Shown here one piece after another: positions 6,969 to 62,421 of a DNA stretch of 64,000 bases (positions are counted from its first letter, which is position 1; each line of letters begins with the position of its first letter). The translations under genes were made by a program, and so were the position numbers. The notes beneath the pieces were generated by a model. That model did not search any database, was not told the DNA's origin, and saw only the letters and a program-made list of their open reading frames with translations. Origin of the DNA: Acytostelium subglobosum LB1 (Eukaryota > Evosea > Eumycetozoa > Acytosteliales > Acytosteliaceae); assembly GCF_000787575.1 (NCBI RefSeq), contig NW_012236530.1, positions 1,246,734-1,310,733 of the forward strand, in the 5' to 3' direction.

Positions 6969-8705
6969 TTATTCTGATCGCCTGTCATAATGATCACTAA
7001 TGTAGGATTGAATATCGATCATTTGGTTTGAAAGTCCAAAGAATTCACGCATTTTGAAGAACTTGAACTTGGTACCTCGCACACATATTGCCAGGTCTGT
7101 GGCGCGGTTCAGGAATCGCATGTGATGAACGATCGTCTGTCCATCAGCGCCAGCGACATGATGGAATAGACTGAATGTCTCGACACTTGTAAATAGATTG
7201 ATCAATGTCAACATGTGATGTTTGAGTTCAGTCCATGATGTACCATCACAACATCTAACATCCAGATGTCTGAGTGATAGACTCTTTAGAGTGCCAACAC
7301 CAAGGCTACTCGCCACACTGATCAATGGTTTTTTGGAGAATGGACTGTGATCATCCTCGATGAATGCTACGCTCTCCAACGCAAGGTCTTTGCAAAGCAA
7401 ATGCATTTGATGCGCTGGATGTTGAAGACATAGTCGCGTGATACTTGATGGGAGGTCAACATCCTCGCTCGCCTGGTTGAATCGCGGGCCAAGTCGTAAC
7501 TTTGTCAAACCGACTGGAAGACGACCTTTGCACAAAGGTCGATTGAACAGTGTACCAAAGGTGAGAGAGGTCAGACCAGCGGGCAGATTAAAGATTAGTG
7601 GCTTGTCAAAGTGCATGCCAAACTTGAGTTTTGTAAGTGAGGCGGGGAGGAAGCTGCGCTCAATCGTCTGCTCAAACAGGTGGTCAAAGTGGAGATGTGT
7701 GATGGTTGATGGCAGTGTGCCCGGAGGGATGTAGTCATACTGATGGCTGTGTGACATGGTGAGAGACTGCAGCCCAAAGGGTAGTATGCTCCGTCGCTCA
7801 CTGTCCAGGACATTGGGCACATTCTCCAGTTTGACCAGGGATGGAGGTAGTGTGCCGGTGACAAGCACACGACCATTGTATGCTCTTGCGAATGATAACT
7901 TTGTGATTGATTGAGGTAGTGTCGACAAGTCAATCGTGTGTGTATATCCAACGCCCAGTTCTAGAGTTGTTAATGAGTATGGAATGGTACCAGACTCCAA
8001 TTTATGATTGAACCTTTGACCAAAGATCAGGTTGGTCAATGAGTTTGGGAGTGAGCTGTGCGTGATCAAAGAGTTGAAGCATGCTCCAAACATTAGAGTC
8101 TTTAGGCCCGATGGCAGGACACACTGTTCAGCAACAACAATCTGTTGATTGAATTCATGGCCAAAGGTGAGGCTTGTGAGTGTTGCGGGCAGATGTCCAG
8201 ACTCAATCAATTGATTGAATGAATCACCAAATGTTAGGCATTCCAATGTTGTTGGGAGTACATCACATGTCAATGAATGATTGAAGTGATGTCCTAACCT
8301 CAATGTCTTGATGTGACTCGGTAGCCTTGACAACTTATTGTTGAACACACCACATAGATACAAGCTTGTGAGTGATGTTGGGACTATTGTTGATGTTGTT
8401 TGATGTTGAGGCAAGTATGGAGTAGTCAATTGAGTTAAAGAAGGTGGCAACACAAACTGATCATGATCTTGTGCTTGATCATCGATTGTTAACATTGTCA
8501 AAGAGTCAAACCATGGTGGTATCGTTGTCGTTGTTGATCCAAAGTTCCAATGATAACCAAGTTTGATCATAACTAGCCTGTTCAAATGTTTACACGTCAG
8601 ACTTAGACAGATGAGGTCCATGTTTGCCCATGTCTCCAACTCTCTCAATATTTGATTGATCACAATCACTGGTAAACAATTATATTTGGTTGTGATCTCA
8701 TTCAT
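6969..8705 (-). CDS. FNIP-repeat protein with F-box-like N-terminus, 578 aa
   Basis: This is a single-exon gene. FNIP repeats are about 22-residue leucine-rich-like units known mostly from dictyostelids and giant viruses; their molecular role is largely unknown. About 14-15 units run through residues 80-430, with the pattern LP.(S/T)L..L.FG..FNQ.(I/L)..G visible again and again (for example the unit around LPATLTSLTFGHEFNQ). The first 50 residues, with hydrophobic VIVINQILREL followed by ICLSLTCKHLN, look like a degenerate F-box. That would make it a candidate substrate receptor of an SCF ubiquitin ligase (inference). The C-terminal 130 residues lack repeats. It lies alone, 25 kb from the other FNIP genes in this window, but on the same strand. 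The start is the first ATG after a TATA-rich leader. Confidence 0.88.
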   Translation of the reverse strand: MNEITTKYNCLPVIVINQILRELETWANMDLICLSLTCKHLNRLVMIKLGYHWNFGSTTTTIPPWFDSLTMLTIDDQAQDHDQFVLPPSLTQLTTPYLPQHQTTSTIVPTSLTSLYLCGVFNNKLSRLPSHIKTLRLGHHFNHSLTCDVLPTTLECLTFGDSFNQLIESGHLPATLTSLTFGHEFNQQIVVAEQCVLPSGLKTLMFGACFNSLITHSSLPNSLTNLIFGQRFNHKLESGTIPYSLTTLELGVGYTHTIDLSTLPQSITKLSFARAYNGRVLVTGTLPPSLVKLENVPNVLDSERRSILPFGLQSLTMSHSHQYDYIPPGTLPSTITHLHFDHLFEQTIERSFLPASLTKLKFGMHFDKPLIFNLPAGLTSLTFGTLFNRPLCKGRLPVGLTKLRLGPRFNQASEDVDLPSSITRLCLQHPAHQMHLLCKDLALESVAFIEDDHSPFSKKPLISVASSLGVGTLKSLSLRHLDVRCCDGTSWTELKHHMLTLINLFTSVETFSLFHHVAGADGQTIVHHMRFLNRATDLAICVRGTKFKFFKMREFFGLSNQMIDIQSYISDHYDRRSE

Positions 8706-33533: not shown

Positions 33534-35264
33534 TTATGGTAACGTTATTATTAGGACATTTGTCGATGGACATGATCCAGATACAACGATAAGTTGTGTT
33601 TGGTCAATGCGTCGCATGAAGTATGGATACTTGTTTCCAGCGAAAGAGATCTTGACTCGGAATGTTTGAATGTTGGGTGCAACCAGCAAGCACCTTTCCC
33701 AATGGAACAGAGATACACTCAATCGTTTGGTTTGGATGGCCCAACCTTCAGGAGATGCCACGGAAGCTGCAATTGTGTTAAACGGATACATATCATTCGG
33801 TACGTTGAGACACATGCCTGGCCACTCTGGTACGACCGCCACAGCCTGAGGATCGGGTACGTCTGGCTCGGTGGTCGTACAAGTGAGATGTCTCAGTTTG
33901 GATGGGAGGCGCAGTTGCGGATTTTGATGCAGCCAGTCGACTTCTGGATTGAGCAGTTGCAGGTTGGTGATGGAGTCTGGAAGCATGTCATTGGTGAGCG
34001 GGTGGATGTGTCGCCGGCCCAGGATCAACGATGTGAGTGATGGGGGCAGTGCGCCCGGGATCTTCTCACTGTTGAGGTCGAGCGTCAGACTGCGCAGGGT
34101 TGTGAGTGATGCCAACGAACCAGGTGTTACCACGCCAACGAGGTCATCCGCACACCATATCCTTAGTGAGGTGAGCGATGATGGTAGGAGACTGGATGTA
34201 ATGGTACCAATGATGGCTCTGCGAATGTTTAGTGAGAGCGACTTGAGTGTTTGGGGAAGATCACCTTGTTGAAGCGGCGTGAATTGATGGCGCGCCCTCA
34301 GGTATGTTAGCGAGGTGGCGTTGGCCATCGCGCTGGCGACTGGCACTTCGAAGCAGACCAGACTGGTGAGTGATGGTGGCAGGGGAGGCATGTTTGGGTG
34401 CGGGCGATAGAAGCTGAGGCTTGTCAATGTGCTCGGCCATGACTTGAAACTATCCAATGAATGGGATGCACCGCCCTCCAACACAAGCGTCTCCAAACCA
34501 TCTGGGATGTTCAATGATTGTGAATTATTAAAGGACATCTTCAACGACTTTAGCAAGGGTATATAGGGCAGCGTCTCTTCGTACCAGTTGCTCAACTGGA
34601 GGTCGGTGAGCGCGTGGGGCAGCGTCACGCTCGCAATCTTACTAACAAATCCAAATCCAAAAGTTAGCGATGTCAGTGACTCCGGTAGCACGCCTGGCTC
34701 CACTACTTGGCCAAACATTGAGCTGAGACGCAGCTTGGTCAGTGACGCAGGCAGCGAGCCAGGAAGAAGTCGTTTGTTGAACATTGATCCATTGCGTGGG
34801 TGATCATATTTGAATGATAACAAGGTGATTGAGTCTGGTAGCGAGCCAGGTGTGATCGTTTGATTAAAGTTCGCGCCGATTGTAAGTGCGAGTAGTGATG
34901 GCGGCAGCTCACCTTTGTTGATCGGTTGATTAAAGTCGTCATGAAACTGAAGTGATGTGATTGATGATGGCAACTCGAGTTGTTTGAATGGTTTGTTGCC
35001 CATCCATATCATGCAGGGCAGGTCATGGTCATCATCAACCTCATCATCACCACATTCATCATCGTTGAGTATATGTTGATGTTGATGGTGACCTTGTGTC
35101 GACATATGTGTGATCATCTTGTTGGCAACAGATCTTAACAACTTGGATGTGAGTGCCAGACACCAGAAGTCCATCATTCTTGCTGAGCGCCAAGCATCCT
35201 CATCACGTGAATGTAATATCTGATTGAATATCGATTGAATGACTATTCCTGGTAATAACTCCAT
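33534..35264 (-). CDS. FNIP-repeat / F-box-like protein, tandem copy A, 576 aa
   Basis: This is a single exon. The N-terminus MELLPGIVIQSIFNQILHSRDED...MDFWCLALTSKLLRSVANKMI is F-box-like, followed by an acidic His/Asp linker. FNIP units (LPPSLLALTIGANFNQTITPGSLPDSIT and so on) run from residue 90 to about 440. A 90-residue C-terminal domain ends in NIQTFRVKISFAGNKYPYFMRRIDQ, which all FNIP copies in this block share. The next copy (35355-37157) is roughly 70% similar by eye and only 90 nt away, so this is a recent tandem duplication. Role as a ubiquitin-ligase receptor is inference from the F-box-like start. Confidence 0.88.
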   Translation of the reverse strand: MELLPGIVIQSIFNQILHSRDEDAWRSARMMDFWCLALTSKLLRSVANKMITHMSTQGHHQHQHILNDDECGDDEVDDDHDLPCMIWMGNKPFKQLELPSSITSLQFHDDFNQPINKGELPPSLLALTIGANFNQTITPGSLPDSITLLSFKYDHPRNGSMFNKRLLPGSLPASLTKLRLSSMFGQVVEPGVLPESLTSLTFGFGFVSKIASVTLPHALTDLQLSNWYEETLPYIPLLKSLKMSFNNSQSLNIPDGLETLVLEGGASHSLDSFKSWPSTLTSLSFYRPHPNMPPLPPSLTSLVCFEVPVASAMANATSLTYLRARHQFTPLQQGDLPQTLKSLSLNIRRAIIGTITSSLLPSSLTSLRIWCADDLVGVVTPGSLASLTTLRSLTLDLNSEKIPGALPPSLTSLILGRRHIHPLTNDMLPDSITNLQLLNPEVDWLHQNPQLRLPSKLRHLTCTTTEPDVPDPQAVAVVPEWPGMCLNVPNDMYPFNTIAASVASPEGWAIQTKRLSVSLFHWERCLLVAPNIQTFRVKISFAGNKYPYFMRRIDQTQLIVVSGSCPSTNVLIITLP

Positions 35265-35354: not shown

Positions 35355-37157
35355 TCAATCAAACTTTATTATTTGGACATGTGATGATGGACATGATCCA
35401 GATACAACGATAATATATGTTTGGTCCATGCGTCGCATGAAGTATGGATACTTGATTCCAGCGAGAGTGACATTAATTCGGAATGTTTGAATGTTGGGTG
35501 CAACCAACAGGTACCTTTTCCAAAGGTACTGCCGTACACTAAATCGATTGGTGTAGATTGCCTGGCATACTCTTCCAGCAGATGCCATTGTCACTGTGTC
35601 AAAAGGAAGCACATCAGTCGATATGTTGAGACTCACGCCTGTGGGCCACTCTGTCACATGTGCAGACAAAGTATCGGGAACAGTCGTGGGCAAAGGCGCG
35701 TATAGTTTGGTGGTCGAACAAGTGAGATGTCTCAGTTTGGATGGGAGGCGCATGGGTGGATGTGGATACAGCCAGTCGACTTCTGGATTGAGCAGTTGAA
35801 GGTTGGTGATGGAGTCTGGGAGTATGACATTGGTGAGTGGGTGGATGTGTCTCTTGCCAAGGATCAGTGATGTGAGCGATGGGGGCAGTGCCCCCAGGAT
35901 CGGTTCCTTGTTGAGGTCGAGCACCAGGCTGCGCAGCGAAGTGAGTGGTGCCAGTGCATCGGGCTCCACCACACGAACAAGACCATCTTCACAACACAGC
36001 TTCAGTGACGTGAGCGATGATGGAAGCAAACTGCACGTGATCCTGTTGATGGCTGTGCGAATGTTTAGTGAGAGTGACGTGAGCGATTGGGGTAGGTCGC
36101 CAGGTCGCAGTAGACTTGTTTGATAGTGCGCTTTCAAGTGTGTGAGGGAAGTGGCGCCGGCTAATACTCGTGCGTCTGGCACTTCGAAGCAGACCAGACT
36201 GGTGAGTGATGGTGGCAGCGTAGGCATGTTTTGATATGGACGATATAAGATGATCTTGGTCAATGTTCTTGGCCATGGTTTGAGTAAATTGTTCAATGTA
36301 TTATAAGAGGTGCCCTCCAACATTAGTGTCACAAGCGTCTCCAGACCATCTGGGATGACCGATGAATGTGATGCGTAGGACATCTTCAAGGACTTTAGCA
36401 AGGGAACATGGGGCAACGTATGGTGATACCAGTTGCTCAGTCTAAGATCGGTGAGTGCGTGCGGCAGCGACCCATCGACCAGCTTCGTGACATATCCAAG
36501 TCCAAAAGTGAGAGATGTTAGAGACGCTGGGAGCACGCCTGGCTCCAACACTTGATCGAACGATGAGCTGAGTCGCAACTTGGTCAGTGACGCAGGCAGC
36601 GATCCAGGTAGAAGAGGTTTGTTGAACAATGATCTGGCGCGTGGGTCATCATGTTTGAATGTCAACTTGGTGATTGAGTCTGGCAGTGTGCCAGGCGTGA
36701 TCATATGATCAAAGTTCGCGCCGATTGTAAGTGCGAGTAGTGTTGGCGGGAGATCACCTTTGTTGATCGGTTGGAAAAAGTTGTGGCTAAGATGAAGTGA
36801 TGTGATCGATGTGATTGATGTGCTGTGGCGAGGGTAGGACAGCTCAAGATGTTTGAATGGCTTGTCATGCATCCAAGTCATACAGGGGAGGTCACCATTA
36901 TCATCTTCATCAAGATCATCATACTCTTCTTTATAGTCATAATGATCATTCTTATCATCAAGTATATGTTGATGTTGATGACTACCTGCTGTCGACATAT
37001 GTGTGATCATCTTGTTGGCAACAGATCTTAACAACTTGGATGTGAGTGCCAGACACCAAAAGTCCATCATTCTTGTTGTTCCCCAAGCACCCTCATCACG
37101 TGAATGTAATATCTGATTGAATATCGATTGAATCAGTATCCCTGGCAATGACTCCAT
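35355..37157 (-). CDS. FNIP-repeat / F-box-like protein, tandem copy B, 600 aa
   Basis: This is a single exon, the closest paralogue of the gene at 33534-35264. It has the same N-terminus (MESLPGILIQSIFNQILHSRDE) and C-terminus (FRINVTLAGIKYPYFMRRMDQ). The acidic linker between F-box-like part and repeats is longer here (KNDHYDYKEEYDDLDEDDNGD) and the first repeat has an insertion (YPRHSTSITSITSL). About 14 FNIP-type units are visible. An 18-bp motif TGATCACTTATTTGATCA lies 40 nt upstream of the start. Confidence 0.88.
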   Translation of the reverse strand: MESLPGILIQSIFNQILHSRDEGAWGTTRMMDFWCLALTSKLLRSVANKMITHMSTAGSHQHQHILDDKNDHYDYKEEYDDLDEDDNGDLPCMTWMHDKPFKHLELSYPRHSTSITSITSLHLSHNFFQPINKGDLPPTLLALTIGANFDHMITPGTLPDSITKLTFKHDDPRARSLFNKPLLPGSLPASLTKLRLSSSFDQVLEPGVLPASLTSLTFGLGYVTKLVDGSLPHALTDLRLSNWYHHTLPHVPLLKSLKMSYASHSSVIPDGLETLVTLMLEGTSYNTLNNLLKPWPRTLTKIILYRPYQNMPTLPPSLTSLVCFEVPDARVLAGATSLTHLKAHYQTSLLRPGDLPQSLTSLSLNIRTAINRITCSLLPSSLTSLKLCCEDGLVRVVEPDALAPLTSLRSLVLDLNKEPILGALPPSLTSLILGKRHIHPLTNVILPDSITNLQLLNPEVDWLYPHPPMRLPSKLRHLTCSTTKLYAPLPTTVPDTLSAHVTEWPTGVSLNISTDVLPFDTVTMASAGRVCQAIYTNRFSVRQYLWKRYLLVAPNIQTFRINVTLAGIKYPYFMRRMDQTYIIVVSGSCPSSHVQIIKFD

Positions 37158-44201: not shown

Positions 44202-45817
44202 TTAATAATATATTTGAATGATGCGAGGCTTGGATGATGGACATGCTGCAGATATCCAGAGTGAGTGACGACGGTCAATGCGTCTTAAGAAGTAGGTATA
44301 GTATCGCTTGCAGAGAAGGACGTTGACTTTGAATGTGTGGACAACGTGACAGCTGTTTCGAACCAGATCTTGATGGCTTCATTATTGATGGTCAATTGGT
44401 TGGTGAATATGACGTCGCCCAAACGTCCACTTGGCACGGCAGAGACGTGGAGACACACGTCACTGCCTGGCGGCAGACGTCTTGCACATCCGACCTGTGA
44501 TTGAGAGCGACACATTAAATGCTTGATGTTGGGTGGCAGATACACATCATTCCATTCCTTGTCCACTTCTGCGTACTTGTCGTCATACAGGTCCAGACGT
44601 GTCAATGAGTCTGGCAACACGCCCTTGGGCAATGGATGGTTGAATGACTCGCCAAGTAACAGATATGTGAGTGATTGGGGCAATGTGCCTTCGACGATTG
44701 GCCGATTGTACTCTGTCTTTGGGCCGAGCATTAGTGTGAGCAATGATGGAGGGAGCACTCCTGGTGGAATAGGGCGATCGAATCCATAGCCAATTCTTAG
44801 CTCGGTGAGAGTGGGAGGAAGTGTATCAGAGACAATGTTCCAAGGGAGGGTGAGCCGGTCGATGCAGAGGTACTTGAGTGAGCGAGGCAACTCGCGAGGG
44901 GGGTTATAAAGCCTCTCGATCGTGAGACTTGTCAATGATATGTCTGCGGAAAAGTCCCTTAAGATGAAGCTATTGAGTTTGGTAAGTGAACCAGGGAGTG
45001 GGTGGACGGGACAGTGGTCAATGGCTGTGAGCTCGGTAAGAGCAGGTGGCCAAGATGATCCACCACCTTCATGAGACGGGGGTGGACGCACACTGAATGC
45101 CGTCCTCAATATCTTGAGTTTGGGTAGTTGAGTGATGGCAAATGATGGCCTGCTGAATATTCCCAGCTCAGTGAGCGAGGCGAGCACATGATCGGGCAGG
45201 GCCTTATTGAAGCCCCTTCCAAGATAGAGAGTGACCAGAGATGCAGGCAACACACCTGGTAGTGTCAAATCTTGATTGAATGCGGTGCCCATGCGAAGGT
45301 CCGTCAGCGAGGCGGGCAACGAACCGCACTCAAATGGTTGATTGAAATTTGAAACTAGTTGTATAGGCCATGATAACATTGTGATTGAGTCTGGCAACGA
45401 GCCAGGCCTGATCGGTTGATTGAACATGTGGCCCATTTTTAAGATCTGTAGTGATGGTGGCAGGGTGCCCGGTTCAATTGGTTGATCGAACGTACCATCA
45501 AGGTGAAGTGATGTTATTGTTGTTGTTGAGATGCTTTTGAAATGCTCCTTGTACTTGAATACAGAGTTGGAAGTCCATAACAAACATGGTTTGCTCATAG
45601 TTGTCGTTGTCATTCCGTAACAATCATATTGCTCTTCATCACTTAGTATGCTGCTGGCATGATGATGTGGACGTATCAACTTCCGTGCGGTTGACATGAA
45701 TGACTTGGAGGTGAGTTCCAGACACATAAAGTCCATCAGTCCAGTACCATTCTGTTGATCGTCATTCAACAAATGATTGAATATATCTTTAACTATTATA
45801 TTTGGTAGTGTTTCCAT
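44202..45817 (-). CDS. FNIP-repeat / F-box-like protein with C-terminal frame slip
   Basis: The F-box-like start METLPNIIVKDIFNHLLND...LMDFMCLELTSKSFMSTARKLI is followed by about 13 FNIP units (LPPSLQILKMGHMFNQPIRPGSLPDSIT and so on). The annotated frame ends at 44285 after STHSKSTSFSASDTIPTS. The family C-terminus (HTFKVNVLLCKRYYTYFLRRIDRRHSLWIS) is present but in another frame, from about 44340 down to a TAA at 44204-44202. A one-base indel near 44340, real or a sequence error, therefore truncates the protein to 510 aa. The rest is intact and the promoter-side TGATCA motif is present. Either a very young loss or an assembly slip. Confidence 0.75.
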
Positions 45818-45894: not shown

Positions 45895-47370
45895 TTATTT
45901 GTTTACAATGAAGTACGGACGATCATATGTGGACGTGTGACATAATAAGGTATTCTGATCAATCCTTCGTAATATTGTGATATCTCTTGATTGATTGATA
46001 AAGTATACTGATACATTGGGTATGCGTATTGTCAATTCCTTAAGGTATTGATACCAGGGAGTGAATGTACCCCATCGCCCAACACTATGAGCAATGTTCA
46101 ATTCCAATCGATCAATACGTGTCAAACACTGTGGAGTGCGCTCTCCCAGCCATACAGTCTCCACTCGCACCAACTCCATCCTGTGGTCAGAGTTAGAGTT
46201 GAACGCCTCCAGACATTTGAGATAGTGTATGTAGGGACTTGTCAGACGACGAATGTTGGCTGGAAGACTTAACTCATCGATGGGAGTATGTCCAGGGTGC
46301 ACCAGCGATGTCAGTGAGTTGGGCAGTACACCCCGAGGTATCTTCCTAGAGTACTCGGATGGAATGATCAGTGATGTGAGAGACGCTGGAAGATGGCCGG
46401 GCATCAATGTTTGGTTGAAGTATTCGCCCAGTTCAAGTTCGAGAAGGGTGTCGGGCAAGCATCTAACAGAGAGCGGTTGATTGTATTTGGTCCCCAGTTC
46501 GAGGGACTCGAGGGTAGGCGGCAGACAGCCAGGGTATAGCGCCTTGTTGTACTCACTACATAGTTTCAATCTTTTAAGATTGCGAGGTAGGTAATCAAGA
46601 TCACCATCAGGTATTGGTTTGATCAGTTGACTCTGTGGATTCAATGGGAAGTAATGATTATCATGGAAGTGTCCACCTTCCTTCAACACTTGGAGTGTCT
46701 CGGGTATAGTAGCTCTGAGATACTGTCGACGGAAGTTGAAGCCAAACATGATATGTGTCAAGCCAGTTGGAAGCACGTCGGGCATTATAGGCTCGACGAA
46801 TGAGTTTCCTAGAATCAATCGTTTGAGTGACATTGGTAGTACACCTGGTATCAGAGCACGATTGAATGATCGACCCAACCTGAGACGTTCCAATCCAGAT
46901 GGCAGTGCATTGACTGGGATCGTCCAATTGAATTCATAACCAAGTTTCAGAGTGATCAATGATGATGGAAGTACATCAAGTCCAATAACTTGATTAAATA
47001 GATTGCCAAATTGAAGAGAAGTTAATGATTGAGGTAGTATACCAGGCAGTAACACCTTGTTGAACCTATCACCCAATGTAACTGATGTTATACGACTTGA
47101 CAATGACTTTAAGAAACTGATTACAAGGTTATCATCTGGTATATTTAGTAGTATATGTGTTGTTGAGTTGCTATTGGCCTTGTCATTGTCATACTTTTGC
47201 TTGTTCATTGATGATGACAAGCTCAACTTGTTGTACACTGCTCTGAATGATCTAGATGTCATTGATAGACATAACACATCCAGACACATTGATTGATAGT
47301 CATTATTATCTTCAATCAAATGATTGAATATAGGCTTTATAACAATATAAGGTAATGTACATATGTACAT
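45895..47370 (-). CDS. FNIP-repeat / F-box-like protein, 491 aa
   Basis: An in-frame ATG exists at 47436, but the start at 47370 is preferred. MYICTLPYIVIKPIFNHLIEDN then aligns with the heads of the other copies, and the 22 extra residues look like leader sequence. The LDVLCLSMTSRSFRAVYNKL segment completes the F-box-like head. About 12 FNIP units follow, very regular (LPSSLITLKLGYEFNWTIPVNALPSG). The end, LKELTIRIPN...ITILRRIDQNTLL, is the family C-terminus. More diverged than copies A-C, so an older duplicate. Confidence 0.85.
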   Translation of the reverse strand: MYICTLPYIVIKPIFNHLIEDNNDYQSMCLDVLCLSMTSRSFRAVYNKLSLSSSMNKQKYDNDKANSNSTTHILLNIPDDNLVISFLKSLSSRITSVTLGDRFNKVLLPGILPQSLTSLQFGNLFNQVIGLDVLPSSLITLKLGYEFNWTIPVNALPSGLERLRLGRSFNRALIPGVLPMSLKRLILGNSFVEPIMPDVLPTGLTHIMFGFNFRRQYLRATIPETLQVLKEGGHFHDNHYFPLNPQSQLIKPIPDGDLDYLPRNLKRLKLCSEYNKALYPGCLPPTLESLELGTKYNQPLSVRCLPDTLLELELGEYFNQTLMPGHLPASLTSLIIPSEYSRKIPRGVLPNSLTSLVHPGHTPIDELSLPANIRRLTSPYIHYLKCLEAFNSNSDHRMELVRVETVWLGERTPQCLTRIDRLELNIAHSVGRWGTFTPWYQYLKELTIRIPNVSVYFINQSRDITILRRIDQNTLLCHTSTYDRPYFIVNK

Positions 47371-47700
47371 TATGTGTATTATTTGTATGAATGAATGAAG
47401 TATGAATGACCCATAAACCATTGTTGGATTCTCCAAAACATAAGATGCCCCTTGATCATTGACCGGTACTCATTCATTCATTCATACAACTATACAAAGA
47501 CATTCATACACATACATAAACATACAACAATAGTGAACTGACCGAATGACCGATTGAAATGACCAAGTATCTCTGCCAACATGAGTCTGGCAAACTTAGA
47601 CACGCCAATTTAAATGCCACTTCTCTACTTTATCATTGCAAAGCGAAACATGGAAGTGGATGCACAACATATTGAACAAGAGTGATTCCATGATCCACTA
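47371..47700. other. Intergenic spacer
   Basis: This 330-nt stretch has TTCA/TACA repeats. Nothing coding is supported apart from an unlikely N-terminal extension of the FNIP gene. Confidence 0.5.
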
Positions 47701-49795: not shown

Positions 49796-50376
49796 ATGGC
49801 AACGACAACTGATCAATCACATATATCTGCAGTTGGAGCAATCACTCAACAGATGCTCCCTTTAGAGTTGATCGACAAGTGCATTGGACAGAGGATTTGG
49901 ATCTGCATGAAGAATGACAAGGAGTTCGTTGGTACACTGCTGGGCTTCGATACATACGTCAGTATGTTATTTTCATCATCCTAGTCATCATCATCATCAT
50001 AGTCATCATCGTACATACTAACCATCAATCATTCATTCAATCAATCATCAACTAGATATATTCCTGAAAGATGTGATTGAATAGTAAGTATCTTCAGTCA
50101 GTCAGTCAGGCAAGCAAGTGATGTGCACAATCTAACATGTTGCTCACAACTCTATATATATAGCGACTTTACACCAGAGGGCATCAAGACTATCAATCTG
50201 GACACAATACTACTTAATGGAAACCATGTTTGTTTGGTAAGTAGTCGCGTGACTCATCCTCAGAGAAGACAGCATCATCCAACGAATAGCAATACTCATA
50301 CCTCCTTATACCATCACAACATCAACAACAGTTGATACCAGGTGGCGAAGGACCTTTGGCAAAGCCAGCAAAGTAG
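49796..50376 (+). CDS. lsm5: U6 snRNA-associated Sm-like protein LSm5, 103 aa
   Basis: LSm5 is one of seven Sm-fold proteins forming the LSm2-8 ring on U6 snRNA and the LSm1-7 ring in mRNA decay. Four small exons (49796-49961, 50056-50083, 50164-50236, 50332-50376) join in phase. Sm1 is [34 protein letters not shown] and Sm2 is [22 protein letters not shown]. The second exon is only 28 nt. The G-G-E-G-P end is typical of LSm5. Confidence 0.93.
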
Positions 50377-50479: not shown

Positions 50480-52995
50480 TCAACAATCTTTAATGACATA
50501 GATACAGTATCTCTTCATTCTCTGACCGTTGGACCACAGTTTGTTGAAGTAGGAGTATCCATAGTCCTCCTCCAGTGGACAGATGTAGTCCTCTTTGACG
50601 GGCTTATAGATGCGAGCCAACTTCTTTGACTGGCGAAGCACCAGGACGATCGAGTCGGCATAGGGCTTGTCATCAGTGACGATGGTCAGCGTGCCATCCT
50701 TCTTGAGCGACCGGTTGATCTCCACCAAAAAGTCGTGATCGATCAGACGCTTGGCGCCAGGCCACACGGGCGGGTTGGGATAGTTGATGTACACCTCGTC
50801 CAGCGTGCCGGTGGGCACGTTGCTCTTGAGCACCTCGTGCGCATCACCCGCCATCAGGTAGAGGTTGTCGATGGACTCGAGTATCATCTTGGACCAGATC
50901 TGGAAGACACGATCGTAACGTATCTCCACAGAGAGCCAGTCTGATTCAGAGTCTTCTGCCGCGCGCTTTGTGATCCAATGTCCGTGGCCGGAACATATCT
51001 CCATCTTTACCGGGCGTGGGTTGGCCTGGTCCCTCGAGTCGCGCAACAACATATCCATGAATGATGAGTTCTTCTCCATCTGGCCATCATTGGCCTTATA
51101 CAAGTTGCTGAATGTCACTGGCGAGAAGAATATCTTCTTGGACCATTCCATCGGTTGGCACTTGACCTTGACTGTTTGTGGTGCCGGTGTATGTTGCCAT
51201 GTTAGGATGTGACTCGTAGGAATCATTCCAATCACTCAATCAATCAATCATACCTTGTTGTTTGGATAGACGTTGGAGACATGCTCGAACACGCTCAGAC
51301 TCTTCGTTAATCTCTTGTCGATTGATACGCTCAAAGAGTGATGCGGACACTTTGTTGGACTCGGATTTCTTGCCCTTGTTCTTGTGTGATTGTGACGCCA
51401 CGCCAATGGATCGAGGCGCTCTCGATAGGATGTCATCGATAATGCCCAACGCCTTGACGGCGCTCTTGAGATCGCCCGCCAGCAGAGCAGCCAGTGAGAG
51501 ACGAGAGAACACGATGGGCGAGATCTCTGTCTCCATCGCCTCGTACTTATCGCCCAGTAATTGCCAGCAATCAGTGATCATCAGATGTTGCGCGTATATC
51601 TTGATCAGGTACTCGATGGTAGAGCTGTCGTCCAACTTCTGCTTCTTCATGTCGGTGTAGAGTCGCTGGGCAATGTCCACGTCGCCACTTCTAATACATC
51701 CACGCAGCACAGAGTTGTAGGAACGTGCATTTGGTGGGATGCCCACCTGCTTCATTGTGTCGACCATCGCTTCGGCGGCAGGCATATCAGTCTCGCACAA
51801 TGCCTTGATGAATGTCGTGTAGATGACCTCGTTGGCGCCCTTCTCACTGTTGATGGCGTCGTCAAACACCTCCTTTGCCATGCCCCATTCTTGGCATCTA
51901 ACACAAGAGTTGAGCAATACTCCAAATGCAATATGATCAGGTCTTGCTCCAATCCTCTTCAAGTAATTATAACTATTCCTAATCTGTTGGAAGTCCTTCT
52001 TCTCGGAGAACTATAAGGTGTGGGCGTGTCGTGGCTGTCAGTGCTCGTGGCCTCTCAATCAATCAATCAATCAATCCAAGTGATACTTACGAATACCAAC
52101 TGTTGTGTAATCTTGTTGACGACCTTCTTGTTGTTCCTGACACTTGGTGGAGCAACTACCTTCTTCTTGGCAGCGTCGCCATTGACTTCTTGCTCTTCAT
52201 CCTCGCCTTCAACATCAACATCATCATCATCACCATTTGTCTCTTCATTCTTCTTTTCCACAGCCACAATCTTATTGTCACCATTAACTTTATCGCTCTT
52301 CTTCTTCTTTGTTACAACCTTGTCACCTTCACTTGTTCCATTTCCATCCTCTCTCGCTCGTTTGTAATCTTGTTGTGTCGTCGCTGTAGTGGTAGTCGTT
52401 GTAGTTGTAGATGGTGTTGTCGTCGCTGGTGTGGTCGCAGTTGCAGTCGCAGACTTCTTTTGTCGCTCTTCAGAAGTAGCTGTCTTTGTTGTATTCGTGG
52501 TGGTGGTCGAGCCCGAGGCCGAGGACGACTTTGCCTTTGTGGCAAAAGATGTCTGAGTGGGTGTTGTAGTAGTCGCCACAGTTGACGACTTTGTCTGAGT
52601 TGGTAACGCCACCTTCTTTGGTGGTTGAGGCTTTATATCATATATCTCAACCTGTAACTTATTCTCTCCAATCACCTTGCCATGTAACGCTGTCTTGAAC
52701 TAAGTTTGGTTCATTGAGTGAGTGATTGATTGAGTGAGTAAGTGATTGAACTAATGAGTTGTTGAGTGAGATTGAGTCCAATACATACATTAGGCATCTG
52801 TGTAATATCATTGACAGAGATCAATGCTATTGTAGTGTCTGGTGAAGGTAGCTCTATGGTTGGAGGCACGATCAATGGCATTGTAATCGTAACCAATGGT
52901 GAGTTATGACATAATGTCTTTAATCTATCGATGACCTCATTCCTCTGTGCAGTCTTTGGTATATTCTTAACCAATAATCTCTTTGTATTATTCAT
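50480..52995 (-). CDS. RRM - PPR - TrmB-like methyltransferase fusion, 754 aa
   Basis: Four exons: 52995-52789, 52699-52091, 52010-51254 and 51171-50480, joining in phase. Residues 1-90 form an RRM-like fold (KRLLVKNIPKTAQRNEVIDRL, then TTIALISVND and HGKVIGENKLQVEIYD). Residues 100-270 are a Thr/Lys/acidic linker. Residues 270-440 form PPR units (GVLLNSCVRCQEWGMAKEVFDDAI, NSVLRGCIRSGDVDIAQRLYTDM). Residues 525-754 form a Rossmann methyltransferase with MEICSGHGHWI and VEIRYDRVFQIWSKM, as in TrmB tRNA (guanine-N7) methyltransferases. The usual DPWPKKRH motif is replaced by YPNPPVWPGAKR, so activity or substrate may differ. Each RNA-binding part could guide the enzyme; organellar location is possible, although no clear targeting peptide is seen. 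The 3' splice site of intron 3 was chosen for phase and size (82 nt). Confidence 0.8.
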
Positions 52996-53252: not shown

Positions 53253-54632
53253 ATGTTTGGTGTACCATCGTTTGGTTCAACATTTGGAGGTGGCTCATCA
53301 GTGTTTGGTGGAGGAGTTGGTGCTACGACACAAAGTTCAGCATTTGGATCAACAAGTTCAGCACCTGCATTTGGTACTCCTACAGCATTTGGTCAACAGC
53401 AACAACAACAACAGCAACAATCTAATCCAGCTGGTAGTGTGTTTGGCTCGAGCTCACCTGCTACCTCTGGAGGCAGTGTGTTTGGATCGTCTTCAGCTCC
53501 AGCATTTGGTGGTGGCGGTGCATTTGGTTCAACATCAGCGTTTGGCACACCAAGTACATCAAACCCAACGGGCAGCGCATTTGGCTCGTCAACACCAGCA
53601 TCAGCCTTTGGCGCGACATCAGCCTTTGGTGCAGTAAGCACATCGAACCCAACAGGCAGTGCGTTTGGAGGCTTTGGATCGACACCAGCATTTGGATCGA
53701 CTACATCAGCGTTTGGCACACCAAGCACATCAAACCCAACAGGTAGCGCATTTGGCTCGTCGACCCCAACATCAGCCTTTGGCTCAACCAGCGCGTTTGG
53801 CTCGACAACACCTTCGACTGGCGCGTTTGGTGCGTCCAACCCAACAGGCAGTGCATTTGGCTCAACAGCACCCTCAGCCTTTGGTGCGACCTCTGCATTT
53901 GGTGCGTCTAACCCAACGGGCAGCGCATTTGGCTCGACTGCAACACCATCTGCCTTTGGCCAAACAACGACTACACCCTCAGGCTTTGGCGCGGCCTCTG
54001 CCTTTGGACAAACAACAACTACACCCTCGGGCTTTGGCTCGACCTCAGCATTTGGCACACCATCAAACCCAGCCAGTGCATTTGGATCAACGTCATCAGT
54101 GTTTGGATCAAACACAAACACAACATCCTCACCCTTTGGACAACCAACATCCACGCCATCAACAGGCGGTGGCTTTGGCGGTGGCTTTGGATCAAACCCC
54201 ATCACATCAACACCAACAGGCACATCATCAGTGTTTGGATCGACCTCATCCAACCCAACAAGCGCAACATCAGTATTTGGATCGAATCCAATCAACATAC
54301 CAGCATCACAAACATCAGCATTTGGCTCAAACACAGCAGCAGCACAACCATCAGCATTTGGCGGCGGTGGCTTCGGCACGCCAACAACTACCAGCAGTCC
54401 TTTTGGACAGACTACACCAGTCACAGCACAACAATCAAACTCCAGTGTATTTGGTGTAACCAGTCTAGAGTCGCCATCAACACCATTCAAAGCATCGACC
54501 ATCACCAGCACACCAACCACGCCCACATCACTAGCCCCCGAGTCCTTCCCATCGCCCTCCAGTCTAGACGTATGGACTGCCGTTGCATTTGAGATTGGAT
54601 CAATTCCAGAGTTCCCTCCAGTTGCCGCCTAA
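53253..54632 (+). CDS. FG-repeat nucleoporin, possibly Nup42/NLP1-like, 459 aa
   Basis: This is a single exon. The protein is nearly all (S/T/A)AFG and FGS repeats, about 50 FG dipeptides, with one Gln tract (residues 50-57). Such FG domains fill the nuclear pore and bind transport receptors. The final 40 residues lack FG; they read SSLDVWTAVAFEIGSIPEFPPVAA. The F.(I/L)G.IP..PP ending resembles the Gle1-binding C-terminus of Nup42/NLP1, which works in mRNA export. No zinc finger is present at the N-terminus, unlike animal NLP1. Long open frames on the other strand and in the +2 frame are repeat shadows. Confidence 0.85.
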   Translation: MFGVPSFGSTFGGGSSVFGGGVGATTQSSAFGSTSSAPAFGTPTAFGQQQQQQQQQSNPAGSVFGSSSPATSGGSVFGSSSAPAFGGGGAFGSTSAFGTPSTSNPTGSAFGSSTPASAFGATSAFGAVSTSNPTGSAFGGFGSTPAFGSTTSAFGTPSTSNPTGSAFGSSTPTSAFGSTSAFGSTTPSTGAFGASNPTGSAFGSTAPSAFGATSAFGASNPTGSAFGSTATPSAFGQTTTTPSGFGAASAFGQTTTTPSGFGSTSAFGTPSNPASAFGSTSSVFGSNTNTTSSPFGQPTSTPSTGGGFGGGFGSNPITSTPTGTSSVFGSTSSNPTSATSVFGSNPINIPASQTSAFGSNTAAAQPSAFGGGGFGTPTTTSSPFGQTTPVTAQQSNSSVFGVTSLESPSTPFKASTITSTPTTPTSLAPESFPSPSSLDVWTAVAFEIGSIPEFPPVAA

Positions 54633-59466: not shown

Positions 59467-62421
59467 TTAAGCTGGTACCAATCCACGCTGGGGAATATAA
59501 GGGATCTTCCTGGGTACCATGGTAATACAGTCGATAATAGGACATACAGAGAGACACAAGTTACATCCAGTGCAGTTGTCGGTGACATTGGGGATATGTG
59601 TCTTGGCATCGAACTTAATGGCAGTGTATCCACTGTCGTTACATGTCCTGTTGAGGTTTGAGTGATTGATATGTTAGTGAATGATGATGGACTTGGATTG
59701 TGTCATCTGATACATACATGTAGCACTTGCCACAGTTGATACACAGGTCTTCATCGATAAGGGCCACGACTTGTTCCTTGTTGTTAAGGTCATTGTAGAC
59801 ACCGATTCTTGGGATGGCTCTGTTGACTTGGTCATGCACTGATGGCACAGGCTTGGTCTGTGGTGCAGCCTCGGGGACAACGGGCTTGGCCTGCAGGTCC
59901 AGAGTCTGATTCTCAGCGAACTCTTGTTGGTTTCTCTCCTTCTGGTAGTTACCAAAGCGTGGCAGGTTGTTATACTTCTTGCGCGAGGCCCATGAGGTGA
60001 GTGACAGGGGTGGCGATTGGCCGTCCCACTGGAGCAGATCCTCTCTCGATTGCATGTACAGGTAGGTCTTGAGACCAGTGATGTAGTCTTGGACGACGGT
60101 GAAGTCCTGATTCTGGACGGCTGAACAGATCTGGATTACACCAGCACCACAGTGAAGGAACTGGATACAGGTGTCAGCAGAGTCAGCACCACCTGTGGCC
60201 ATGATTGGGAAGTCGGGAAGCGCACGACGGATCGAACTGACAGCACGAAGGGCCATTGGACGGGTGGCGTTACCACTGACACCTCCGTAGGTGGTCCTCT
60301 TCTCGGAACCGATGGCGGGCCAGGCGTTGGAATCACCCTTCAAGCTCATCAGGCCAGAGACTGTGTTGATGGCGGTGACACCAGAGGCACCACCAGTGTG
60401 GGCGGCCATGGCAATCTCCTTGACCTCAGTGACGTTTGGTGTCAACTTGGCAAAGAATGGGATCTTGATTGCCTCGCGCACCCACTTACAGATGTGCAGC
60501 ACCAGGTCTGGGTTCTGGCCACAGGCAAGACCCATACCACGCTCACCCATACCGTGTGGACAGGAGAGGTTGAGCTCGAGGGCGTCGGCACCGCTGGCCT
60601 CGGCCATCTTGGCCAACTCTTGCCAGTCATCCTTGTTGAATCCACACATGATCGATGCGATCACTATCTTGCTGGGGAAGTCGCGCTTCAGCTCTGTGAC
60701 GGCCTTGCACCAGTAGTGGCAAGTCTTCTCACTGATAAGCTCGATGTTGAGGAAGGCGCCTTGGCCAGGGCCAAAGTGATGACCGCTGGTTGTACCACGA
60801 ACAATACGTGGAGACACATTGGTGACGAGATCCTTGTCCAATGAGAAGGTCTTTGTGACGGCGAAGCCCCAGCCTTGCTCGAATGAACGACGGATCATCG
60901 AGGCGGACGTGCAGGGTGTGGCGGAGGCCAGACCGAACGGGTTCTCAAACTTGAGGCCACAAAAGTCGATGCTAATGTCAACCAAGTCGATTGGTGTGAA
61001 GAAGTTTGGAAGCTGGGGAGAGTCTGGGATGGGGATACCATGAAGCGACTGTAGGTACTTGTGGATGTTCCATGATGCAGTCTTTCCATCGTTGACAGCC
61101 TCGACTGTGGTACCGTTGCCAATGAGATCACCACCACAGAACAACCATTCCTGGTTGGTGGCCTGCATGGTCATTTGGTCGACGTCAGCCAAACCGTGTC
61201 TGGTAAACTTCAATGGCTTGCATGATTCTGCTACCTCACCAATCTGACTACCAAAGGCAGAGATGATGTAGTCACACTTGACACGGAAGAACTGGTCCTC
61301 ATCGACGGCGTACTGGCCATCCTCGCCCTTCTCTGTCTTGTAGAACTCGAGTGCGACGATCTTTCCCTCGCGACGAATCACCTGTTTGGGCAACACAAAT
61401 GGAAGGAACTCGCAACGCTCATCCTTGGCAATATCAACCTCTTCGGGAACGGCACGCATGTCGCTGAAACCACGACGGAAGCAGACTGTGACACGGGAGG
61501 CACCACAACGGAAGGCCGAGGTGGCACAATCAAAGGCGGTATCTCCAGCACCCAGCACGACAACACGGCCGCGCAGCTCTGGCAGCTTGCTCGAGCATCC
61601 ACACATGCCTGGCTTTGATCCCTTGGACACCAGTGGCAGGTAGTCCTTGGATGTGTAGAAGCCCTCAGCAACAGTGAGGCCTTGGAAGACCTTGTCAATC
61701 TTGGCCTCGGGCATACCAATACCAAGGTACACGGCTTCGTAGCCCTGAGCCTTGAGTGACTCTACAGTGAAGCCATTGTCGCCCAGCTTCTTGCCATAGA
61801 CCACCTTGACGCCCAGGTCCTTCATGAGCTTGACCTCAAACTCGACGACGTCGAATGGCAGACGGTACTGGGGGATCTCAGCAGAGCTCAGACCGCCAAC
61901 ATACTCCTCCTTCTCAAAGATTGTGACGTCGGTGTAGCCCAGACGCGCAAGGAAGGTGCCACAAGAGATGGATGTGGGGCCACATCCAATTAGGGCGATC
62001 TTGGCACGGTAGCTCTCTGGCAGCTGGTCCAGTGGTGTAAGCGATGGGTCGCGGATCTGGGGGATGTTCATCTTCTTGAAGACGTCTGTGGCGTACTGTT
62101 GCAGGCCACCGATCTTGATGGCGCCCTCCTCGGTCGAGGCCAGGTTGCAGCCACCCTCACATAGGTTGGACACGGGACACACCATACCACAGGTCAGACC
62201 AACGGGGTTGTCTGAGAAGATAGCCTTGGCAGCGCCGTAATAGTTCTTTGTGGCGATTGAAGAGATGAATGACTTTACATCAAGTTGTGTTGGGCAAGAC
62301 TTTTGGCAAGGTGCATCAGCGCACTTCAAACATCTCTGTGCCTCAAACAATGCACCTCTCTCTGTCAAAGTAGTTGGCTTCACATCGCTAAAGTCATTCT
62401 TTAGTTCACATGCCTTTTAGT

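Follow-up and report, generated by a model that had tools for sequence, protein, structure and literature searches.

A PPR protein of Acytostelium subglobosum with a TrmB-like methyltransferase domain and an altered catalytic-side motif

On the minus strand of a 64,000-nt stretch of the Acytostelium subglobosum LB1 genome (hereafter the window), open frames between positions 52995 and 50480 encode PPR repeats followed by a domain resembling the bacterial tRNA methyltransferase TrmB. The locus raises the question of whether these frames form a single gene and, if so, whether its product can be taken for an m7G46 tRNA methyltransferase.

The gene can be drawn as four exons. Exon 1 (52789-52995) encodes residues 1-69, comprising the start and most of an N-terminal head, and exon 2 (52091-52699) encodes residues 70-272, in which the end of the head is followed by a linker. 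Exon 3 (51254-52010; residues 273-524 plus one base) carries the PPR repeats and then a Lys/Ser-rich connecting stretch, and exon 4 (50480-51171) provides residues 525-754 and the stop, that is, the TrmB-like methyltransferase domain. The three introns, of 89 nt (52700-52788), 80 nt (52011-52090) and 82 nt (51172-51253), all begin with GT and end with AG, and the third separates the PPR exon from the methyltransferase exon. Joined together, the exons of 207, 609, 757 and 692 nt yield 2265 nt in frame, corresponding to 754 amino acids and a stop. No intron has a length that is a multiple of three, and retention of intron 1, 2 or 3 singly would truncate the protein by a stop at residue 95, 280 or 529, respectively. 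The junctions proposed in a sequence-only reading of this DNA (52789/52699, 52091/52010 and 51254/51171) proved exact and preserve the frame, and its claim of a single gene fusing PPR repeats to a TrmB-like domain is supported by the in-frame exons and by the high significance with which both domains are detected. The four exons make a convincing gene model for one 754-residue protein, the removal of the introns being predicted from the sequence.

The fusion itself is not new, because such proteins were described in 2013. PtcE of Dictyostelium discoideum was reported as a PPR protein of 746 amino acids that ends in a tRNA m7G46 methyltransferase domain, and homologues were named in D. purpureum, P. 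pallidum and D. fasciculatum (PMC3753752). Manna and Barth (2013) named the PPR-TGM subfamily, with 22 listed members, four of them in slime moulds and the others in entamoebae, algae, diatoms and further groups; they held that the methyltransferase stems from Chlamydiae, reported a single gene of this kind in each slime mould, and assigned the proteins as m7G46 tRNA methyltransferases on the basis of in-silico analysis (PMC4029402). The notion that TrmB normally stands alone therefore overlooks this subfamily. The subfamily also appears in a review of the RNA-binding proteins of dinoflagellates published in 2026 (PMC12787238). Our literature search on PtcE in Dictyostelium returned only the two 2013 papers and no further work on this protein. 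As in PtcE, PPR repeats precede a C-terminal methyltransferase domain here, at a length of 754 against 746 residues, whereas five PPR motifs were counted in PtcE with TPRpred (PMC3753752) against three NCBIfam stretches here. In the main text of the PtcE paper the term 'RRM' is absent, and in that of the PPR-TGM paper so are 'catalytic', 'active site', 'aspart' and 'RRM'. To judge from domain order and length, the A. subglobosum gene probably encodes another PPR-TGM protein.

The identity of the methyltransferase domain is well defined at the level of the fold. Pfam Methyltransf_4 matches residues 577-714 with an E-value of 5.8e-26, placing a C-terminal TrmB-like domain in the same predicted protein as the repeats, as in PPR-TGM members. 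Among solved structures, the closest sequence match of the exon 4 product is E. coli TrmB (E 6.3e-9), yeast Trm8 reaching only 0.24, which marks the domain as bacterial in type. An AlphaFold model built on a 45-row alignment has a mean pLDDT of 74.7, with a Rossmann core largely above 90 (92-95 for each ten-residue block of domain residues 51-130); confidence is low in residues 1-40, in the altered loop at 131-140 (pLDDT 62) and in the C-terminal part at 181-229 (50-68). Foldseek ranks SAM-bound E. coli TrmB first for this predicted fold, and its top 27 rows consist entirely of TrmB, METTL1 and Trm8 structures. The SAM-dependent, TrmB-like fold suggested earlier is thus borne out, and the MEICSGHGHWI and YPNPPVWPGAKR motifs noted in the same reading are both present in the protein. 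Eukaryotic Trm8/METTL1 shares the fold and is more distant in sequence than bacterial TrmB; it carries no PPR repeats and works with a partner, Trm82/WDR4. Relatives of the domain were found in 25 plasmid and 6 phage matches, all below 60% identity; among the 20 plasmid matches listed and the 6 from phages, those that carry an annotation are labelled TrmB or tRNA (guanine-N7) methyltransferase. No viral relative was confirmed in the viral contigs scanned.

The NCBIfam model for TrmB (TIGR00091) scores 73.4 bits against an equivalog cut-off of 112.65, 39 bits short. The domain shares with the bacterial enzymes (TIGR00091; E. coli, B. subtilis) the fold, the SAM-binding motif bar one Gly, a Thr-Asp pair and one tRNA-side Arg, but differs from them by an Asn in place of the catalytic Asp, a shortened RHxKR part of the loop, an Asn at the equivalent of E. 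coli E220 and the PPR fusion. Motif I, EICSGHG (residues 57-63 in the numbering of the domain, P0001; 50981-51001, minus strand), keeps E57, G61 and G63 and has Cys for the first Gly. Downstream lies the altered motif NYPNPPVWPGAKR (129-141; 50747-50785, minus strand), in which an Asn, encoded at 50776-50774, stands where TrmB has the catalytic Asp of its PDP motif. The earlier observation that the catalytic-side motif DPWPKKRH is replaced is therefore correct. Finally, SYFN (206-209; 50543-50554, minus strand) is the counterpart of the TrmB TxxE motif in two of three alignments, with Asn for Glu.

How unusual these residues are was estimated from 130 distinct bacterial homologues. At the column of E. 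coli D144, 127 have Asp, two have Asn and one has Glu; at that of E220, Glu is found in 126, Gln in three and Leu in one, against Asn (N209) here. Arg at the R155 column (129 of 130) is retained as R141, as is the residue at the D180 column, shared by 129 homologues. Lys replaces R154, as in 21 of the 130, and Ser replaces T217, as in 14, while the near-invariant His corresponding to H151 is missing. Thus, among the E. coli residues H151, R154, R155, D180, T217 and E220, at which alanine strongly lowers activity, R155 and D180 are kept; the Thr-Asp pair (T165-D166) is also kept. A smaller set of 44 sequences, hand-chosen for spread, has 16 columns with a constancy of 90% or more, of which the A. 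subglobosum protein keeps 11 and changes 5. One change, Cys for the initial Gly of motif I, affects the SAM motif, whereas the other four (D to N, K to G, the missing His and E to N) fall on the catalytic side. The set of 44 includes an identical pair (L118/L038), and the count remains 11 kept and 5 changed without the duplicate.

The larger sample was drawn from 138 loci, from which three weak Methyltransf_4 matches (L084-L086) were removed; the remaining 135 loci encode 130 distinct proteins, of which L001-L080 supply 80 and L087-L138 the other 50. L001-L080 are the 80 loci retained out of 277 confirmed and are mostly from Gammaproteobacteria; no chlamydial titles occur among them. For the other 50, genomes were scanned from two phyla, that of a Verrucomicrobia genome (G001, L040) and that of a Staphylococcus genome (G003, L038); one scan gave a match in 128 of 145 genomes and the other in 22 of 149, and the best 30 and all 22 of these, respectively, were taken as loci. 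The prevalence of Asp is not built into the sample, since the 80 loci were selected by patterns outside the catalytic motif. The single Glu at this site belongs to a protein (L138) without the TrmB loop, which is probably no TrmB. In one locus of the phylum of G003 (L117), an open frame of 718 amino acids encodes a TrmB domain and, after it, what by eye is a threonine synthase-like stretch. The E-to-N change is less certain than the D-to-N change, because an earlier alignment of the 80 loci pairs SYFN differently (Arg in 72 and His in 76 of the 80 stand opposite it) and because the model is weak in this region. Nor does the model place the Asn, which lies in the poorly modelled altered loop.

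Published mutants give these substitutions their weight. For E. coli TrmB, replacing R26, D144, H151, R154, R155, D180, T217 or E220 by alanine was reported to lower activity below 10%; D144A is more than 150-fold slower and binds tRNA 2.5-fold more tightly than the wild type, yet still attains the wild-type end level at high enzyme concentration (PMC10130221). For the Aquifex aeolicus enzyme, a review states that all activity is lost when Asp133 is changed to Ala or Asn (PMC6320965). Two bacterial homologues from the phylum of G003 (L132 and L134) have CNPWP in place of (P/S/C)DPWP, the rest of the loop being canonical and the Glu kept. As the Asn occurs there in an otherwise canonical loop, Asn alone may be tolerated. 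Given the D-to-N and E-to-N changes, the missing His and a score below the TrmB cut-off, m7G46 activity should not be assumed for the A. subglobosum protein. The sequence-only reading raised the possibility of a target other than tRNA m7G; this is a fair suggestion, backed by residue counts and published mutants, and falls short of proof.

In the protein that we propose, docking on RNA would fall to the PPR part. Pfam detects PPR_2, PPR and PPR_long, the best PPR_2 stretch covering residues 332-378 (51693-51833, minus strand) at an E-value of 2e-15, and NCBIfam finds three PPR stretches (TIGR00756), within the range of about three to seven motifs of PPR-TGM proteins. The curated cut-off of PF17177, which describes the PPR region of PRORP, is also passed, and matches to PRORP1 chains include 6lvr (E 6.8e-6), titled as a PPR domain in complex with tRNA. 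The top matches among solved chains are single-strand binders, both designed PPR proteins and natural ones from plants, which score well above PRORP1, so that single-strand binding is as possible as docking on tRNA. Folding of the PPR exon without an alignment gave a mean pLDDT of 58.7 and only 7 Foldseek rows at an E-value of 0.001, and the model was accordingly given little weight. Three detected repeats would be too few to specify a unique site unaided, which weakens the proposal that the enzyme is self-guided.

Upstream of the repeats, the head had been read as RRM-like. We looked for an RRM in four ways and did not adopt this identity. No Pfam RRM match was obtained for the whole protein at E-values up to 1, nor for residues 1-97 alone at up to 10, a search in which the filters of the program remove most matches weaker than about 0.1. 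Among solved structures, again at E-values up to 10, the head matched two chains, neither of them an RRM. An unfiltered search with a profile built from 30 bacterial RRMs gave the head 0.9 bits, a score equalled or exceeded by 7 of 500 shuffled heads. By eye, the head has an RNP2-like start and no RNP1. The resemblance is thus marginal; a degenerate RRM is possible, since the profile match has two weak pieces that align, in the expected order, with the first and the last strand of an RRM. The acidic, Thr-rich linker reported after the head does exist, as a Thr-rich, basic and acidic low-complexity stretch in exon 2. It includes a basic cluster, KRAR...KKKK (residues 182-203; 52298-52363, minus strand), which resembles a nuclear signal and may act as one. 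The first 30 residues contain seven basic and two acidic residues, and residues 1-40 were examined for the amphipathicity of a mitochondrial presequence; their hydrophobic moment does not stand out from that of shuffles, of which 510 of 2000 reach its value at 100 degrees and 1951 of 2000 at 160. Given the excess of basic residues, a presequence, and with it the organellar location put forward in the sequence-only reading, is possible. For the slime-mould PPR-TGM proteins, Mitoprot values of 53, 69, 71 and 15% were reported (PMC4029402).

The reading that best accommodates these data, to which we assign a probability of roughly 60%, is that of a PtcE-type dictyostelid PPR-TGM protein that remains a methyltransferase. 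A short PPR superhelix would dock on structured RNA, most likely tRNA, in the manner of the PRORP PPR domain, and would present it to a bacterial-type TrmB-fold domain binding S-adenosylmethionine, where methyl transfer would still occur, probably to guanine, through a modified active site. Guanine is favored because the Thr-Asp pair proposed to hold it in TrmB (PMC10130221) is kept. The changed residues may imply a chemistry or a position different from those of TrmB. In this scheme we infer the splicing as drawn, the tRNA substrate, its docking by the PPR repeats and the persistence of methyl transfer.

The main rival is a pseudoenzyme, in which the TrmB-fold domain would bind SAM or tRNA without methylating and serve as an RNA chaperone or in RNA processing or transport. 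We regard this as unlikely, although the loss of the catalytic Asp, the near-invariant His and the Glu, together with the K-to-G change, speaks for it, as does the reported inactivity of the A. aeolicus Asp mutants (PMC6320965), and the D144A enzyme, slow yet tight in tRNA binding, suggests that this fold can bind without catalysing (PMC10130221). Against it, E57, G61, G63, T165-D166 and R141 are retained, as expected under continued selection on an enzyme, and the canonical loops of L132 and L134 indicate that the same Asn need not be fatal by itself. An ordinary tRNA methyltransferase that forms m7G46, the activity assigned to PtcE in the literature, and in which the motif changes would amount to harmless drift, appears similarly improbable: the TrmB-matching fold and SAM site, the kept Thr-Asp pair and Arg, and the Asn of L132 and L134 all agree with it, but 5 of the 16 near-invariant TrmB columns are changed and the score lies below the equivalog cut-off. 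Finally, one could imagine two neighbouring genes, one for a PPR protein that closes with exon 3 and one for a TrmB-like protein whose start codon is an ATG within intron 3, as the open frame entering exon 4 has an ATG as its fourth codon within that intron and homology here does not span the exon 3/4 junction, which falls between the domains, but a gap of only 82 nt with GT and AG ends and a preserved frame, and published slime-mould orthologues that are single proteins with both domains (PMC3753752; PMC4029402), make this very improbable.

Ten neighbouring open frames were also searched with Pfam, and 8 were matched. Five encode FNIP-repeat proteins (6969-8705, 33534-35264, 35355-37157, 44285-45817 and 45895-47436, all on the minus strand), a group expanded in Dictyostelium. 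The others are the first part of an LSM-domain gene (49799-49984, plus strand), a dihydropyrimidine dehydrogenase-like frame with Fer4_20 and DHO_dh matches (59639-62383, minus strand) and an FG-repeat nucleoporin-like frame (53253-54632, plus strand). The last is divergent from the PPR-TGM gene, its start lying 258 bases from the ATG of the latter. No tRNA genes were found in the window.

The remaining interest of this locus resides in the chemistry of a changed active site and not in the architecture. The preferred protein, a PPR-TGM member that still transfers methyl groups, would be an unusual non-plant PPR protein equipped with its own RNA-modifying domain. Since its active site departs from that of m7G46-forming TrmB, the published function is worth testing, and slime moulds, with one reported PPR-TGM gene each, offer a simple test of the m7G46 role. 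We tentatively suggest, at somewhat less than even odds, that slime-mould PPR-TGM proteins are not m7G46 enzymes: the PPR repeats would pick the target, and a TrmB domain of the Asn/NPP type would either have been retargeted to a different base or site or provide SAM-dependent RNA binding without methylation. Should the change in the active site prove common to the PPR-TGM family, the published m7G46 assignment would become doubtful.
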